A stretch of DNA of 34,246 nucleotides from a virus. The notes beneath the pieces are model-generated. The model searched no databases, was not told the DNA's origin, and was given only the letters and a program-made list of their open reading frames with translations. The first letter of the stretch is position 1. Each line of letters starts with the position of its first letter. The stretch is from IMG/VR virus record IMGVR_UViG_3300027704_003403, positions 1 to 34,246 of that record. One strand, given 5' to 3'. Both the position numbers and the translations under genes were made by a program. This document shows, in pieces, positions 15,137 to 34,005 of the stretch.

Positions 15137-15760
15137 ATGGAATTTAGGCCTGTATTTAAAGACAAAGATGCTATGCCGGTATGGGAAATTACCGGTGTAG
15201 TTATACCTGAAATATTTGAAGAAGTATTATGTACAGAGAGTGATTGGGAATCGGCTAATAAAGTTTATAAAACACATGGAAATCACAACGACGGAAAGTT
15301 TATATACTCAGGTAATGCACTCCAAGAAGTAGATTATACCAAGATAATGAATCCTGTAGTTGACTTTTTAAAAATACAGGAAGATTATGATTTTAGATCC
15401 TCCTGGTCCGCTTGGAAATTTATCGACGCTATTGAAGCCCATAGAGATTGCAGAAAAATGGACATATGGAAAATGTTAGCTAATGCTGATCATGGAGCGC
15501 ATACTGATAATCTATTTATTATGGGAACAGTAATCTTAAATATAGCTGAAAATGCAGAAGGATCAGGTACAAAGTACTATGATAAATTAGGACCAAAAAC
15601 TAATGGCTTTCTCAGAGAGTTATATGAGTCTCCTGCAAAAAAAGGAACCGGAGTGTTACATATTAATACACATTCAACCTTACACAGAGGTCATAATAAT
15701 AGCGAACAAGACAGGTATGTTGCATATACTAACTTAATGAGCACAAGTGGACAGAAGTAG
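15137..15760 (+). CDS. 2-oxoglutarate/Fe(II)-dependent oxygenase-like protein
   Basis: 207 residues. The iron-binding triad is visible: HTD (His122, Asp124) and a distal His in LHRGH (His183 or His186), followed by DRYVAYTNL in which Arg193 would hold 2-oxoglutarate. Between them is the expected jelly-roll strand set (GTVILNIAENAEGSGTKYYD and GTGVLHINTHS). Such enzymes hydroxylate proteins, nucleic acids or small molecules; phages often carry them and the substrate is usually unknown. The gene abuts uvsX with no spacer and is followed 9 nt later by a radical SAM gene, so the two may act on the same target. The substrate cannot be told from sequence. Confidence 0.75.
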   Translation: MEFRPVFKDKDAMPVWEITGVVIPEIFEEVLCTESDWESANKVYKTHGNHNDGKFIYSGNALQEVDYTKIMNPVVDFLKIQEDYDFRSSWSAWKFIDAIEAHRDCRKMDIWKMLANADHGAHTDNLFIMGTVILNIAENAEGSGTKYYDKLGPKTNGFLRELYESPAKKGTGVLHINTHSTLHRGHNNSEQDRYVAYTNLMSTSGQK

Positions 15761-15769
15761 TATAATTAA

Positions 15770-17011
15770 ATGAAGAGAGAAATACAATATATACATGCTG
15801 AAATATCAACCCTATGTAACGCAGCATGTCCGTGTTGCCCAAGGTTTTTATTTAGTTCACCAACAGTAACTCCTGGATTAGAGCCTGGTTACATTTCATT
15901 CCCTAATTTTAAAAAGTTTTTTCCACCATCTATACTAGGTAGGACTAAATCTATTAATTTCTGCGGTAACCACGGAGATCCTGGAACAAACCCTGACCTA
16001 TACGAGATACTTGAGTACTGTAGCCAATTTAATGAGTTAAAAGTACAGATGCATACCAACGGAGGAATGAAATCAGCTCAATATTGGGGTAAAATAGGTA
16101 AACTAGCTCAAGGACGAAAGAATTGGACGATAATCTTTAGTATTGACGGACTAGCAGATACTAATCATATATACAGGAGAAATGTTAAGTGGGATAAACT
16201 AGAGAAGAATATAAAAGCAGTAGGGAAATATGCTTGTCATAATCATGGCTCTACAGGTTTTTTCTTTATATGGGAGTACCTAGTATTTGAACATAATCAA
16301 CATCAGCTTGAAGAAGCAACAACTCTAGCAAGAGACTTTGGGTTTACATCTATACAACTTAAACGCCCTCTTAATGTAGATGACGGAGTAAATCATACTG
16401 CAATAGCAGCACTAAATAGTGATGGGGAAGTAGACTACTGGATTAAACCAACCACGTTAAAGAATTACATGCCTCCTTATATTAAAGATTCAGCTTCCCT
16501 AAAATATGAGTCCCCCCTCCGTACACATAAGACTACCTTAATAGAGGCCGTAAATAAAGCATCTGGACCAGCGCTAAAGAAAATAAATTTCTCTGATAAA
16601 GTAACAGTAGAAGAAAATATAGAAGTAGCTAATAACTCAAAAATAATACCTCTATGCCAGTCTCAGGAGTATTACGTAGAAGCTTCTGGTCAAGTACATA
16701 AGTGTTGCTTTATAGCAACCGGATTTGATTCAGCAAAAAAACTATACCTTAAGGGAGACAGACCTAATGAAGGAGTTAGGCAGTACGTAGAGAAAATGCT
16801 GGAACTAGGCAATTTACTGAATTTACATCATACTGACTTAGAGACTATTGTAGAAGATAAAACAGTCCAAAAGCTATACGATAAAGGATGGAAAAAAACA
16901 GTAGAAGAAGGAAAATTAATGCAATGCGTAAATTACTGCGGAAGTAATAATACTCTAGCAGCGATCGAATCAATATTTAACGCACCTGAACTTAACAAAA
17001 CTAAAATCTAG
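15770..17011 (+). CDS. Radical SAM protein with SPASM/twitch-like C-terminal cluster site
   Basis: 413 residues. The N-terminal motif is CNAACPCC: Cys16, Cys20 and Cys23 fit CX3CX2C and bind the 4Fe-4S cluster that cleaves S-adenosylmethionine. Downstream are FCGNHGDPGTNPDLYEILEY (the GGEP-like region), MHTNGG and IIFSIDGLADTNHIYRRNVK, all typical of the radical SAM barrel. The C-terminal part has Cys296, Cys312, Cys313, Cys386 and Cys390 in a PLCQSQEYYVEASGQVHKCC pattern, as in SPASM or twitch domains that bind an auxiliary cluster and often modify peptides. It lies between a 2OG oxygenase and the exonuclease, each with little or no spacing. The substrate is unknown; no precursor peptide gene was identified. 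Confidence 0.85.
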   Translation: MKREIQYIHAEISTLCNAACPCCPRFLFSSPTVTPGLEPGYISFPNFKKFFPPSILGRTKSINFCGNHGDPGTNPDLYEILEYCSQFNELKVQMHTNGGMKSAQYWGKIGKLAQGRKNWTIIFSIDGLADTNHIYRRNVKWDKLEKNIKAVGKYACHNHGSTGFFFIWEYLVFEHNQHQLEEATTLARDFGFTSIQLKRPLNVDDGVNHTAIAALNSDGEVDYWIKPTTLKNYMPPYIKDSASLKYESPLRTHKTTLIEAVNKASGPALKKINFSDKVTVEENIEVANNSKIIPLCQSQEYYVEASGQVHKCCFIATGFDSAKKLYLKGDRPNEGVRQYVEKMLELGNLLNLHHTDLETIVEDKTVQKLYDKGWKKTVEEGKLMQCVNYCGSNNTLAAIESIFNAPELNKTKI

Positions 17012-25871: not shown

Positions 25872-26681
25872 ATGGCAAAAAATGTTGTAATATCCTTATC
25901 TGGAGGGATGGATTCCTCTACCTTACTACTCAGATGTTTAAAAGAGTATGACAGTGTAACTGCAATATCTTTTGATTACGGTCAAAAGCATAGAGTAGAG
26001 CTTGAAAGAGCACAATCGTTAGTTGAGTACTTAAATGATAATGGTAACAGTATCAAATACCAAGTAATTAAACTAGACGGATTAGTTAACTTACTAAATT
26101 CAGCTTTAACTGAAGGCGGAGCAGATGTACCGGAAGGTCATTATGAAGAGGATAACATGAAAGCTACAGTAGTACCTAATAGAAACAAAATATTTGCTTC
26201 TTTAGTTCAAGCAGTAGCACTATCAGAAGCAATGGCTAATGGCAATAACACAGATATTGCGTTAGGTATTCATGCTGGAGATCATGCAGTATATCCGGAC
26301 TGTAGACAAGAGTTTAGAGATGCAGATGACAATGCCTTTAGGTTAGGTAATTGGGAAGCAGACAAGGTAGGGTACTTTACTCCCTATTTAGATACAGACA
26401 AATTTGGAATATTAAAAGATGGACAGAAATTGGTTAAAGAGCTCGGAATTGGGTTTAATGATGTTTACGAACGTACTAATACATCCTATAAGCCATATCC
26501 TAGCGGTAATAGCGACTACAAATCAGCATCATCTGTTGAAAGGATCGAAGCATTTATCTTGTTGGGTGTGGATGACCCTGTACAGTATGAGGATGAAACT
26601 GGAGAAGTTGAATACGGTATTGCAAAAGCACATGTAGAGAAGTTATTAACAGAGCATGCAGCTGTAAAAGGAGACGCTTAA
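25872..26681 (+). CDS. queC: QueC-like 7-cyano-7-deazaguanine synthase without zinc cysteines
   Basis: 269 residues. The ATP-pyrophosphatase loop SGGMDSS is at residues 10-16, followed by FDYGQKHRVELERA, the VPNRNKIFASLVQA segment and HAGDHAVYPDCRQEF, all matching QueC, which turns 7-carboxy-7-deazaguanine into preQ0 using ATP and ammonia. The C-terminal zinc site, in E. coli TCY followed by CGHCAAC, reads TSY (Ser205) and then Asp215, Ser218 and Ser221 with the usual spacing of three, before VERIEAF. All four metal-binding Cys are gone, while an active-site Cys (YPDCRQEF) remains. The enzyme could fold without zinc or have an altered product, such as stopping at the amide. QueD and QueE are near the end of the window. 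Confidence 0.88.
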   Translation: MAKNVVISLSGGMDSSTLLLRCLKEYDSVTAISFDYGQKHRVELERAQSLVEYLNDNGNSIKYQVIKLDGLVNLLNSALTEGGADVPEGHYEEDNMKATVVPNRNKIFASLVQAVALSEAMANGNNTDIALGIHAGDHAVYPDCRQEFRDADDNAFRLGNWEADKVGYFTPYLDTDKFGILKDGQKLVKELGIGFNDVYERTNTSYKPYPSGNSDYKSASSVERIEAFILLGVDDPVQYEDETGEVEYGIAKAHVEKLLTEHAAVKGDA

Positions 26682-26927: not shown

Positions 26928-27533
26928 ATGTTATCAATACAAATACCTACCGTAGAGCAAAGGAAGATAACTTTCCGGAAGCTATACACTGAACTCAAAG
27001 AACAGAGTAAGCCTTATGGTAACGATATTGAAATAATATACCTTAGAGATAATAAAGAACTCCCTATAGGAGAAAAACGAAATAAGCTATATGAAATGGC
27101 TACTAAAAAGTATAGCCTTCAGTACGACGACGACGACTGGATTCATAAAAATGGAATAGAGCTTATAATGAACGAGCTTTATAGAGATGTAGATTGTTTT
27201 ACTTACAACTATAAAGTTCATTTAGATGATGGTAGGTACATATATAGAGAAAAGAACTCTTTCGGAGTAGATTATATAAAACAGAAGAATTTTAACGGGT
27301 TTAATAACGTACACCCTCCTACTCCTAAATGTATTTTCAAAACATCATTAGCTAGACAAGTTAAACTTGATGAGAATCTTAGATACGGTGAAGATGGATT
27401 CTTTGCAATAGGTATTAAACCATTAATTAATTCATCATTTCATATTGATAAGTATATTTATGAATATAAGAATTTATCTGGTGAGTCCTTTGATGATCCT
27501 GCTAGATACGGAATGACTGAAAAAACATGGTAA
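26928..27533 (+). CDS. Family 2-like glycosyltransferase
   Basis: 201 residues, short for a GT-A enzyme. SIQIPTVEQRKITFRKLYTE opens the nucleotide-sugar fold; IGEKRNKLYEMATKKYSLQY leads into DDDDW (Asp67-70), the DxD-type metal site; later YGEDGFFAIG holds the acidic catalytic base. The missing C-terminal region suggests a minimal enzyme. It is the first gene of an overlapping operon with hydrolase, kinase and carbamoyltransferase genes, so it may attach a sugar or polyol to DNA, virion protein or host glycan. The start lies 15 nt after the tRNA. No clear promoter is found between them, so co-transcription with the tRNA is likely. Confidence 0.75.
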   Translation: MLSIQIPTVEQRKITFRKLYTELKEQSKPYGNDIEIIYLRDNKELPIGEKRNKLYEMATKKYSLQYDDDDWIHKNGIELIMNELYRDVDCFTYNYKVHLDDGRYIYREKNSFGVDYIKQKNFNGFNNVHPPTPKCIFKTSLARQVKLDENLRYGEDGFFAIGIKPLINSSFHIDKYIYEYKNLSGESFDDPARYGMTEKTW

Positions 27534-28204
27534 AGCCGACTGTACATTTTTTTGGAGATAGCTTTACTGAAGGTGTTCAGTTAAAAAATACCCCGTATAT
27601 TTGGCCAAAATTAATTACCGCAGCATTAAAAGATTATGATTATAAAAATTATGCACAAGGTGGAGCAAGCCCACAGTTTATAGTCAATCAAGTTATTAAA
27701 AATTTAACAGGTATAAAATCAGGAGATAAAGTATTCTTATTAGAAACTATACCTGATAGAATAGAGGTTTATAGTGAATATAGAGATAAAGTAGTAAGCG
27801 TCACAAACAGTGCAATTGTAAACGCACTCTCAAACACACTTCCAATAGATAAAGAATACTTTAATGACGAACAGGAAATAAAAAGCGCTTTTAATTTTAT
27901 ATACGATCACAGGTATAAGAGACTTGGTGTTTTTGCAAAGTACTTTTCTAATATATACTCAGATTTTGGAGAGTATTTTAAAACTACCGGAGTAGAGTTT
28001 ATACTTCTTCCTTACAGATTAACTTTTCATAATATACCTACTGGTGAAATGTTTGAAACTGTAACTAAACAAACAAAAGGAGCAACAACAGACGGTCATT
28101 TTTCTGTTTCTGGACATTGGCAGTTTGCAAGCTACATACTAGGTAAATACTATAAGGAATTTAATTATGAACTCCCACTATTAAGGGATAAGCTACTAAT
28201 ATAA
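27527..28204 (+). CDS. SGNH/GDSL-like hydrolase
   Basis: 225 residues. Block I is FFGDSFTEG with nucleophile Ser12; block II-like YAQGGASPQFIVNQV carries the oxyanion glycine; the C-terminal DGHFSVSGHWQFA (Asp189, His191) supplies the other catalytic residues. No signal peptide, so it acts in the cytoplasm. Family members are esterases or acyltransferases, often on carbohydrates. It overlaps the glycosyltransferase by 7 nt, so the pair may set an O-acyl decoration on the same glycan. An alternative is a non-catalytic SGNH domain used in virion assembly. Confidence 0.78.
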   Translation: MVKPTVHFFGDSFTEGVQLKNTPYIWPKLITAALKDYDYKNYAQGGASPQFIVNQVIKNLTGIKSGDKVFLLETIPDRIEVYSEYRDKVVSVTNSAIVNALSNTLPIDKEYFNDEQEIKSAFNFIYDHRYKRLGVFAKYFSNIYSDFGEYFKTTGVEFILLPYRLTFHNIPTGEMFETVTKQTKGATTDGHFSVSGHWQFASYILGKYYKEFNYELPLLRDKLLI

Positions 28205-28214
28205 AATTTAAAAT

Positions 28215-28691
28215 ATGATAATTTGGTTAACAGGCCAGCCAGGAGCAGGTAAAACAGTACTAGGTAATATGCTTAGAGATAAAATGGAAGAGCATAAAAC
28301 TTTTACCTATATAGTTAAAAGGGTGGACGGTGATGATTTAAGAGATTTAACTGTTAATAAAGACTATTCTATAAAAGGTCGGATAGCTAATGTAGATACA
28401 GCACAAAAAATTTCACATTACTTACATAATAACTCAGATAATGTTGTTGTTTCGTTAGTTTCTCCGTATCTTGATCAAAGAGAAGAATTTAAAGAGTTAA
28501 TTGGAGAAAGTCTACTAGAGATTTATGTACATACTACTGAGAAGAGAGAAAGAGATCATTTTCATACAGATGGGTACCAGAAACCGATAAGTAACTTTAT
28601 CGATATAGATACTACAGAAGACACACCAGAAGAATCGCTTATAAAAATTATAACTCACCCGGAATGGAAAAAAAGAAAACTTATTTTGTAG
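28215..28691 (+). CDS. APS-kinase-like P-loop kinase
   Basis: 158 residues. MIIWLTGQPGAGKTVLGNML carries Walker A GQPGAGKT (residues 7-14). VDGDDLRDL corresponds to the LDGDNxR motif of adenylylsulfate kinases, NVDTAQKISHYL to the ENIRRxA helix, and VVVSLVSPYLDQREEF to the ISPYRxxR strand. The protein is shorter than CysC and diverges after residue 115, so the substrate may be another nucleotide- or sugar-like alcohol rather than adenylylsulfate. In bacteria, CysC-like kinases and DUF2061 proteins occur together in surface polysaccharide loci, as here. The 3' end overlaps the HAD gene by 28 nt. Confidence 0.8.
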   Translation: MIIWLTGQPGAGKTVLGNMLRDKMEEHKTFTYIVKRVDGDDLRDLTVNKDYSIKGRIANVDTAQKISHYLHNNSDNVVVSLVSPYLDQREEFKELIGESLLEIYVHTTEKRERDHFHTDGYQKPISNFIDIDTTEDTPEESLIKIITHPEWKKRKLIL

Positions 28692-29002
28692 ATATAGATG
28701 GAACTATATTTATGTACCGTAAATTTGAAACGTATAAGAGTAGTGAAGCAGTAGTACTCCCTAGTTCTAAACGGTTCTTACAACAGAGACATGACGAAGG
28801 TCATAGTATTATATTAACTACAGCAAGACCTGAAGAGCTACGTGCTCACACGGTTAATGAACTAAGCAAAGGTAATATACCTTATAATCAATTAGTAATG
28901 GGAATCGAAAGAGGACCAAGATACCTTATTAATGATATGGATCCTAAAGTTGCAGGAGAAAGAGCAATAGCAATGAATTTACATAGAGACACAGGAATAT
29001 GA
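28664..29002 (+). CDS. HAD-superfamily phosphatase-like protein
   Basis: 112 residues. YFVDIDGTIF contains the DxDGT nucleophile motif (Asp9, Asp11). IILTTARPEELRAHTVNELS has the Thr/Ser motif II and following helix; RYLINDMDP provides the last acidic motif. This is a small cap-less HAD, as found beside nucleotidyltransferases and kinases, where it removes phosphate from sugars, polyols or nucleotides. The start ATG inside the preceding gene is the only one that keeps the first motif. It overlaps the next gene by 4 nt (ATGA). Confidence 0.82.
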   Translation: MEKKKTYFVDIDGTIFMYRKFETYKSSEAVVLPSSKRFLQQRHDEGHSIILTTARPEELRAHTVNELSKGNIPYNQLVMGIERGPRYLINDMDPKVAGERAIAMNLHRDTGI

Positions 29003-29355
29003 ATAAACAATTTTCAATGTTTATCGGTAGATGGCAACCTTGGCATCCCGGACATAGATGGTTAATAGATCAGAGATTAAAAGAAGGTAAGAACGTTTGG
29101 ATAGCAATTAGAGATGTTGAATCAAACGATAAACAACCTTGGACTGCACAAGAGGTTTTAAAGAACTTAAGTGAGGAATTAATAGATTTACTACATGAAG
29201 GTAGAATTAAGATATCTATAGTACCAGATATTGAATCTATTAATTACGGTAGAGGAGTAGGGTACGAAGTAATAGAACACGTACCACCTGCAGATATACA
29301 TGATATATCAGCTACTAAGATTAGAAAACAGATGAAAGAAGATGGTAAGTTATAA
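28999..29355 (+). CDS. Third HxGH nucleotidyltransferase
   Basis: 118 residues. FIGRWQPWHPGHRWLIDQRL holds the HPGH signature; VWIAIRDVESNDKQPWTAQE follows as in nicotinamide-nucleotide or phosphopantetheine adenylyltransferases; ISATKIRKQM is the ISSTxIR signature. It is very short and would transfer AMP or CMP to a phosphorylated substrate. Between the kinase, HAD and DUF2061 genes it looks like the activating step of a small-molecule pathway. The first two nucleotidyltransferases (18382, 18788) belong to another subtype, so it is not a simple duplicate. Confidence 0.8.
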   Translation: MNKQFSMFIGRWQPWHPGHRWLIDQRLKEGKNVWIAIRDVESNDKQPWTAQEVLKNLSEELIDLLHEGRIKISIVPDIESINYGRGVGYEVIEHVPPADIHDISATKIRKQMKEDGKL

Positions 29356-29551
29356 ACGACATATTGCAAAAACAGTTTCATGGAGGGTTATAGGTACATT
29401 AGATACAGTAATACTCTCAGGAATAATTACAGGTTCATGGAAAACCGGTTTAGCAATAGGAGGCGTAGAAGTATTTACAAAAATGATACTCTACTTTTTC
29501 CACGAACGTGCTTGGTATAAGTATAGTAAATTTGGTATAAAAAAGAAATAA
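29342..29551 (+). CDS. DUF2061 small membrane protein
   Basis: 69 residues. It matches the DUF2061 pattern I remember: HIAKTVSWRVIGTLDTVILS, then IITGSWKTGLAIGGVEVFTK, then MILYFFHERAWYK. It has two hydrophobic helices. Function is unknown; the family is often adjacent to APS kinase and polysaccharide genes, as here. It overlaps the gene before by 14 nt and the gene after by 1 nt (TAATG). Confidence 0.85.
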   Translation: MVSYKRHIAKTVSWRVIGTLDTVILSGIITGSWKTGLAIGGVEVFTKMILYFFHERAWYKYSKFGIKKK

Positions 29552-31206
29552 TGGTACAATTAGGAATATCAGCATTTTACCACGACTCAGCAGCATGTCT
29601 AGTAATAGATGGAAAAGTAATATCAGCTGTTGAAGAAGAAAGATTCACTGGTATCAAACACGACGATGCTTTTCCTATTAATGCAATAAACTGGATTTTA
29701 AGCTCTAATAGGATTAGTATTGAAGGTGTTGATCAGGTATGTTGGTACGAAACACCAAATCTTAAGAAAAAAAGAGTACTCAAATCATTTAATAAAAATT
29801 TCTTTTCTACTTTATCACTGAGATATAAGTTTTTAAGTAAATTTAAAAAACAAGATCCAACCCGTAAGTTAAAACAGATTGGATATACAGGTGAAGTAGT
29901 AAATACATATCACCACAGCTCTCATGCTGCTTTTTCATACTTTACCAGTACATATAACGAAGCAGCAGTACTCACAATAGACGGAGTAGGGGAATCTGAA
30001 ACAGTAACAATTTCAAAAGCTACAGGAACTGAGTTAGAATCAAAATTTAGCTTAGAATATCCTAACTCTTTAGGAATGTTATATTCTACTATTACAGCTT
30101 ACCTAGGATTTAAACCAAACGAAGGAGAGTATAAAGTAATGGGATTAGCTCCATACGGAAACCCAGATCAATTCTTTAATAAACTACATAGTCTCTTTAC
30201 TCATAAAGATGGTAAGTTCTCACTTAATATGAAAGGCTTTGATTGGGAAAAATCAGACCGTACAATGTTTAATTCTAAGTTATGTAGAACATTAGGAATA
30301 CTTCCTAGACTACCTCAGGAAGAAATAACTCAAGAACACAAGAACTTAGCATCAGCATTACAGAAGGTATACGAAGTAGAGTTTTTAAAACTTGTAAAAC
30401 TAGCATCAGAGATTTCAAAATCAAAAAACCTATGTTTATCAGGTGGATGTGCGTATAATGGAGTTGCTAATACATTAGCATATAAGTATTTTGACTCTAT
30501 ACATATACCCTTTGCACCATCAGATGCAGGTTCAGCTATTGGAGCATGTCTATACCATTATAGAGGAGTCAAGCAATTAAATTTAAATCCATTCTTAGGT
30601 CCTAAATTTAAATCGACTGAAATACATAAAACTATTTTAGAGTTCACCGGCCTTGTAGTATCTTTTAAACTATCGGATGATCTTCTAGTAAAAAAAGTTG
30701 GTGAAATACTAAATAATCAAAAGATAGTAGCCTGGTTTAGAGGAAGCATGGAATTTGGAGCAAGAGCATTAGGTAATAGGTCTATATTAGCTTCCCCGTC
30801 AGACCCTAAGATGAGAGAAAAACTTAACCTCGTTATAAAGAAGAGAGAAGGATTCAGACCCTTTGCACCCTCAGTAATAGCAGACAAAGCAACCAAGTAC
30901 TTTGATATAGTTGAAGACATACCTTATATGAACCAAGTAGTTCAAGCAAAAACAAAAAAACTACCAGCTGCAACACATATAGATAATTCTTGTAGAGTTC
31001 ATACAGTCACTCCGGAACAAAATCCTATTTATTACCGGCTATTAAGTGAAGTAGGTAGACTTTCCGGTATTCCGGTACTTTTAAACACATCCTTTAATCT
31101 AAAGGACCAAACCATTACCATTACACCTAAACAGGCTATAGAGAGATTTTTAGATTCAAAAATTGATTTCTTAGTGCTTAATAATTACTTAGTACAAAAA
31201 CTATGA
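29551..31206 (+). CDS. Carbamoyltransferase (NodU/TobZ/CmcH family)
   Basis: 551 residues. The N-terminal Kae1-like domain starts LGISAFYHDSAACLVIDGKV, has the metal/carbamoyl-adenylate site HHSSHAAFSYF (His121, His122, His125) and DGVGESE (Asp144), then MGLAPYGNP and LSGGCAYNGVAN. The C-terminal YrdC-like domain has FRGSMEFGARALGNRSILAS and REGFRPFAPSVI, ending VLLNTSFNLKDQ. The enzyme makes carbamoyl-adenylate from carbamoyl phosphate and ATP and moves the carbamoyl group to a hydroxyl, often of a sugar or nucleoside. Its partner substrate here probably comes from the upstream glycosyltransferase/kinase/nucleotidyltransferase genes. It overlaps the next small gene by 4 nt. Confidence 0.92.
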   Translation: MVQLGISAFYHDSAACLVIDGKVISAVEEERFTGIKHDDAFPINAINWILSSNRISIEGVDQVCWYETPNLKKKRVLKSFNKNFFSTLSLRYKFLSKFKKQDPTRKLKQIGYTGEVVNTYHHSSHAAFSYFTSTYNEAAVLTIDGVGESETVTISKATGTELESKFSLEYPNSLGMLYSTITAYLGFKPNEGEYKVMGLAPYGNPDQFFNKLHSLFTHKDGKFSLNMKGFDWEKSDRTMFNSKLCRTLGILPRLPQEEITQEHKNLASALQKVYEVEFLKLVKLASEISKSKNLCLSGGCAYNGVANTLAYKYFDSIHIPFAPSDAGSAIGACLYHYRGVKQLNLNPFLGPKFKSTEIHKTILEFTGLVVSFKLSDDLLVKKVGEILNNQKIVAWFRGSMEFGARALGNRSILASPSDPKMREKLNLVIKKREGFRPFAPSVIADKATKYFDIVEDIPYMNQVVQAKTKKLPAATHIDNSCRVHTVTPEQNPIYYRLLSEVGRLSGIPVLLNTSFNLKDQTITITPKQAIERFLDSKIDFLVLNNYLVQKL

Positions 31207-33537: not shown

Positions 33538-34005
33538 ATGGGAAAATATCAATCAACTAAAGTATTCGATGGATTCAGTACAGTCTTTCGACAATGGAAA
33601 GCCGAAACAACTCATTGTAGATTTCTACATGGGTACGGCATCTCTTTTAAATTATGGTTTGAAGGAGATTTAGACGATCGAAATTGGGTTTGGGATTTTG
33701 GAGGAATGAAAAGAGCTAAAACCTTAATTGATGGAAAATCACCTAAGGCATGGATGGATTATATGTTTGACCATACTTACCTGGTAGCAGAGGATGATCC
33801 ATTTTTACCTGAAGCATTAAAGCTAGATAAGAAGGGTATAGCACAGGTTAGAATAGTACCTGCCACAGGAGCAGAGAAGTTCTCACAGTATATATATGAA
33901 AAGCTAGCTCCGTTCATAGAGACGGAAACTGAAGGAAGAGTTAAAGTTATAAAAGTAGAATTTAGAGAACACGGTAAAAACTCAGCATTATATGTCCCTA
34001 GGTAG
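33538..34005 (+). CDS. queD: QueD-like 6-carboxytetrahydropterin synthase, zinc site altered
   Basis: 155 residues. The core has HCRFLHGYGISFKLWFEGDL (catalytic Cys27), VWDFGGMKRAKTLI and WMDYMFDHTYLVAEDD, then a FREHGKNSALY end. These match the family that makes 6-carboxy-tetrahydropterin from dihydroneopterin triphosphate, the second step of preQ0 synthesis. The usual zinc ligands are three His (AAH, and HGH); here the HGH is HGY (Tyr33) and the AAH position reads TVF, so only His31 remains. I recall LHGY in a group of QueD-like proteins, so this may be a subfamily trait. queE overlaps the 3' end by 14 nt. Confidence 0.85.
   Translation: MGKYQSTKVFDGFSTVFRQWKAETTHCRFLHGYGISFKLWFEGDLDDRNWVWDFGGMKRAKTLIDGKSPKAWMDYMFDHTYLVAEDDPFLPEALKLDKKGIAQVRIVPATGAEKFSQYIYEKLAPFIETETEGRVKVIKVEFREHGKNSALYVPR

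Follow-up and report, generated by a model that had tools for sequence, protein, structure and literature searches.

The queC locus and its gene context

The window, meaning the whole stretch of 34,246 nucleotides analysed here, derives from a large tailed phage of marine origin, as a fragment of 34 kb. It encodes a QueC protein and, further downstream, a QueD of the same pathway. The features of interest are the following.

25872..26681, + strand: QueC, 269 aa; PF06508 at 138 bits (cutoff 22), phrog_1550, closest structures 2PG3 and 3BL5
25899..25916, + strand: ATP-pyrophosphatase loop SGGMDS, residues 10-15, intact
25977..26000, + strand: YxQxHxxE motif, here YGQKHRVE, residues 36-43, intact; Tyr36 corresponds to E. 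coli Y35
26172..26186, + strand: VPxRN motif, here VPNRN, residues 101-105, intact; Arg104 corresponds to E. coli R99
26292..26303, + strand: YPDC motif, residues 141-144, intact; it holds the last Cys of the protein
26475..26543, + strand: former zinc loop, residues 202-224 (TNTSYKPYPSGNSDYKSASSVER); Ser205, Asp215, Ser218 and Ser221 replace the four Cys, and Tyr206 is kept
33538..34005, + strand: QueD (6-carboxytetrahydropterin synthase), PF01242, phrog_2389

The score against PF06508, 138 bits compared with a curated cut-off of 22, places the protein in the QueC-like superfamily. It falls below the cut-off of the NCBI QueC equivalog TIGR00364 (136.4 vs 150.3 bits), as does a relative that bears the zinc site (L129, 148.3 bits), and the zinc-less QueC of a Dinoroseobacter phage passes (172.2 bits). 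Judged by QueC, the closest annotated relative is Flavobacterium phage vB_FspM_immuto_2-6A, whose protein is 67% identical across 97% of the query.

The window QueC shares with the canonical enzymes of E. coli and B. subtilis (2PG3 and 3BL5) the SGGxDS, YxQxHxxE, VPxRN and YPDC motifs, the fold and the neighbouring pathway genes. The E. coli enzyme requires Y35, R99, Y131 and Y189 (PMC13329287); these correspond to Tyr36, Arg104, Tyr141 and Tyr206, and all of them are retained. The conserved Lys (Lys177, E. coli K165) is kept together with the essential zinc-loop Tyr, Tyr206. An AlphaFold2 model built from 43 sequences had a pLDDT of 91.8 (90-92 in the loop) and a pTM of 0.90, and its top structural matches were QueC 2PG3 and 3BL5, followed by Cap9.

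The window stops short of the genes that follow QueD in relatives, which are queE, folE and dpdA, often with queF and a formyltransferase (gene order taken from phage immuto 2-6A). Directly after QueC (26928-31206) are genes for a glycosyltransferase, an APS-kinase-like protein, a HAD-like phosphatase fragment, a cytidylyltransferase-like protein and a NodU-type carbamoyltransferase; together they may form a cluster for decorating surfaces or nucleotides. Elsewhere in the window (15137-17011), a 207 aa protein that has no Pfam match precedes a weak radical SAM protein, whose motif is CNAACPCCPRF.

Replacement of the zinc-binding cysteines

The zinc site of canonical QueC is C(x)8CxxCxxC (PMC13329287), and a 2026 survey of the QueC family lists this four-cysteine site in the canonical signature (PMC13329287). 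The window QueC contains only two cysteines, C22 and C144, the latter in the YPDC motif. The register of the lost site was set by alignment with relatives that keep it, for example L129 (TCYKPNSQGQSCGRCGSCNER) against the window protein (TSYKPYPSGNSDYKSASSVER). The four positions are C1=Ser205, C2=Asp215, C3=Ser218 and C4=Ser221. The alignment bears out the original prediction that all four ligands are replaced while SGGMDS, VPNRN and YPDC are intact, and also its preference for Asp215 over Ser214 as the second position. Cysteine ligands elsewhere in the C-terminus, which would have spoken against that prediction, were looked for, and none was found across the 125 residues after Cys144. In addition to the replaced cysteines, the window protein differs from canonical QueC in a first spacer of 9 residues (likewise 9 in L129), in additional residues ahead of the loop and in a longer C-terminus. 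The QueC of phage immuto (YP_010114440), annotated as plain QueC, has the same S,D,S,S site; it differs by ten extra residues inside the former zinc loop.

At least 598 relatives turned up in a scan of IMG/VR, and the best 80 of them were retained; all database counts in this analysis are lower bounds. Sequencing error or chance was ruled out, since S,D,S,S is present in all of these best 80 (73-100% identity). Recoding was also set aside, as had been proposed from the single sequence, because the 80 relatives give the same residues with both types of Ser codon; serines 205, 214, 218 and 221 are each encoded by TCN and by AGY codons. Residues 202-228 stand out in an alignment of 62 non-redundant members: out of 216 possible stretches of 27 residues, this one has the lowest amino-acid entropy (0.046 vs 0.47 bits), whereas its codon entropy is average (1.31 vs 1.38). 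The loop is thus the most conserved region while its codons vary freely, so the S,D,S,S loop is under strong purifying selection and is a maintained feature rather than a decaying one. The catalytic residues were identical in 52 of the 52 zinc-less QueC sampled, save for a single alignment gap at the P-loop; in 26 zinc-bearing QueC they were essentially identical too.

Recurrent loss of the zinc site

The complete C,C,C,C site was found in relatives more distant than the best 80 (L129, L218, L219 and L220). Intermediate sites were also found, namely C,T,T,D in L131, S,H,T,D in L130 and S,S,T,D in L127; the graded series further includes L128 with S,S,S,D and L221 with S,D,T,D. A second group of zinc-less QueC belongs to siphophages, including Pseudomonas phage Iggy, Sphingomonas phage MMDA13, Rhizobium phage RHEph04, Aminobacter phage Erebus, Pseudanabaena phage Pan1 and Dinoroseobacter phage R26L. 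These proteins have lost the four Cys, keep the catalytic residues and adjoin preQ0 pathway genes, as in the window clade; they differ in belonging to a separate lineage, in their motif T(S/A)YDGxYPP and in their site pattern (S/A, any, D/N, T/S/N). Their close relative L121 retains the zinc site. In most zinc-less loops a single D or N occurs within positions 2-4, and its place varies: the window clade has D at C2, the intermediates and planctomycetes have D at C4, and the siphophages have D/N at C3.

On a phylogenetic tree built without the zinc columns, the state of the site changes 6 times, and supported branches force at least 4 of these changes, with loss and regain not distinguishable; a quicker tree gave 7 changes, 3 of them forced. 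As judged from the sequences, the siphophage lineage lost the zinc site separately from the window clade, and this loss appears as a recurrent event in at least two distant lineages, with every catalytic residue untouched. The proposal that the window protein may fold without zinc is supported by this recurrence, the confident model and the strong purifying selection on the loop.

Zinc-less QueC in planctomycetes and other cellular bins

Zinc-less QueC genes were also found on cellular contigs of up to 410 kb. The idea that these are only misbinned phage was rejected, because L130, L348, L352, L354 and L355 lie among cellular genes; L124-L126 may be misbinned phage. On L130, a planctomycete contig, the neighbours of the zinc-less QueC include citrate synthase and SAICAR synthetase. 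A QueC match was present in 75 of the 80 genomes examined from the same family. Most of these are the canonical, high-scoring form (about 200-270 bits), and among the 30 best-scoring loci read, all 29 that reach the zinc site have the four Cys.

A low-scoring form (105-148 bits) occurs in at least 12 genomes of this family, and a canonical QueC in addition to it was found in none of the 12. When read in all 12, eleven lacked all four Cys and one (L131) retained the first Cys only; the site is otherwise S,(S/H/D/N),T,D. These proteins (L130, L131 and L348-L357) belong to the same clade as the window protein (support 100/99) and have all the catalytic residues, but they are chromosomal genes in cells. 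QueF was found in 12/12 and QueA in 11/12 of these genomes, whose only full QueC is of the window-clade type. These planctomycetes appear to make queuosine with a QueC that lacks the zinc site, although the genomes may be incomplete, or preQ0, preQ1 or queuine may be salvaged.

In two further bins, named as a Poseidoniales archaeon (L128) and Verrucomicrobiota (L127), the zinc-less QueC is the sole full-length QueC, and QueA was not found in either bin. Contamination or another use may account for these two.

Pathway genes in the related phages

The queD, queE and folE genes to which canonical QueC is linked accompany the zinc-less form as well: queD is in the window, and FolE, QueE and DpdA are present in 12/12 long contigs of the window clade. 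Phage immuto itself has the complete folE/queD/queE/queC/dpdA/queF set. A two-domain QueF and a formyltransferase are located near an immuto-like DpdA in 9/12 contigs. The other three (L025, L034 and L074) have neither of these two genes, and their DpdA shows only 37% identity. One phage clade therefore has two DNA-modification gene sets, with QueC zinc-less in both. The QueC proteins nearest to that of the window within this set (L008, L013 and L015) are all on QueF-type contigs. Among 20 long phage contigs, each has one PF06508 gene, and no zinc-bearing QueC was found beside it.

The immuto QueF matches the Vibrio cholerae QueF 3BP1 (1e-47) and keeps the catalytic Cys/Asp of the nitrile reductase. 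Since QueF acts on the nitrile preQ0, preQ0 must be available. A PurN-like formyltransferase (immuto gp204; L082:35039-35566) is encoded after dpdA, from which one small gene separates it, and may formylate preQ1 in the DNA. Formylated preQ1 in phage DNA has reportedly been described by Cui et al., together with a formyltransferase, DpdN; the PurN-like gene near dpdA presumably resembles the latter.

Proposed function and alternatives

The window gene is best explained, with a probability of about 80%, as encoding a QueC that works without zinc and continues to produce preQ0 (7-cyano-7-deazaguanine). Judging from its gene context, the enzyme would convert CDG, with ATP and ammonia, to the intermediate ADG and then to preQ0. 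Ser/Thr plus one Asp or Asn have taken the place of the four zinc Cys, and a Ser/Thr/Asp hydrogen-bond network, instead of zinc, would hold the loop with the essential Tyr206. The phage preQ0 would be inserted into DNA by DpdA, often after reduction by QueF to preQ1 and perhaps formylation, and the modified base might protect the DNA against restriction. Zinc is probably dispensable for the chemistry of QueC. Several points weigh against a preQ0 synthase: host QueC could be the preQ0 source for Iggy and the window-clade phages, incomplete genomes or salvage may account for the planctomycete pattern, QueF is absent in 3 of the 12 long contigs, and the window protein is under the TIGR00364 cut-off.

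The loop might not be metal-free, because its four residues could bind another, harder metal ion such as Mg2+ or Mn2+. In favour of this, an Asp or Asn occupies one of the three downstream positions in nearly all zinc-less loops. However, three Ser/Thr and one Asp are a weak ligand set, the position of the Asp varies, and the siphophages have non-polar Ile, Leu, Val or Ala at C1 or C2. A replacement metal is therefore considered unlikely.

Another possibility, raised in the original prediction, is that the zinc-less enzyme halts at the amide and yields ADG, which DpdA inserts as dADG. ADG is a true intermediate of QueC (PMC13329287), dADG is known from phage DNA (PMC8306585), and QueF is missing from three of the 12 long contigs. 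Other observations speak against this possibility. Iggy has a zinc-less QueC, and its DNA is published as dPreQ0-modified (cited in PMC11008142; also PMC11945000), whereas Campylobacter phage CPt10, reported with dADG (PMC8306585), has a QueC with all four zinc Cys; zinc loss and ADG are thus uncoupled. QueF, which consumes preQ0, is present in 9 of the 12 long contigs, its catalytic site being intact in the one checked, and the planctomycetes that appear to depend on the zinc-less type for queuosine retain QueF and QueA. Of the earlier interpretation, folding without zinc stands, but ADG in place of preQ0 is quite improbable. The same low standing is given to a narrower version for the immuto-like clade, in which zinc loss altered the chemistry (ADG released, or activated CDG passed to another acceptor) and a host QueC supplies the preQ0 for QueF.

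A decaying or inactive QueC, retained by chance while preQ0 comes from the host, would fit the likely presence of an own QueC in the hosts of several of these phages, and the activity of the zinc-less form is itself predicted. This is very unlikely, because the altered loop is the most conserved region while synonymous variation is free, all catalytic residues are invariant, FolE, QueE and DpdA are kept in every long contig, and this type is the sole full QueC in the 12 planctomycete genomes. Repurposing for another reaction is hardly credible: the anti-phage defence proteins Cap9 and QatC, which share the QueC fold and ATP loop, do reuse the scaffold to join CDG to protein (PMC13329287, PMC13279940), but they retain the zinc cysteines that the window QueC lacks, no QatB or CD-NTase partner gene was found among the genes annotated in immuto, and the relatives have the full preQ0 pathway with DpdA and no substrate partner seen.

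The zinc-free preQ0 synthase remains the preferred reading. The zinc-less QueC is predicted to work like QueC yet lacks its zinc site, and within the QueC family it is best classed as a recurrent variant branch. The site was discarded in at least two distant lineages with the catalytic residues untouched, which suggests that zinc props up the QueC loop and has no part in nitrile formation. No description of a zinc-free QueC variant was found in the literature searched, a set that lacks key phage-base studies. The zinc-less proteins and the intermediates provide a ready set of natural variants for testing the role of zinc. Moreover, motif-based annotation can overlook preQ0 synthases in phages and planctomycetes.

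The PF06508 superfamily also includes a second, very divergent protein beside the zinc-bearing QueC on the 111 kb phage contig L219 (15570-16325, P0002). This protein has 251 aa, an SSSGLDST loop and CEWPSVVEGIMKPCGDCPAC.
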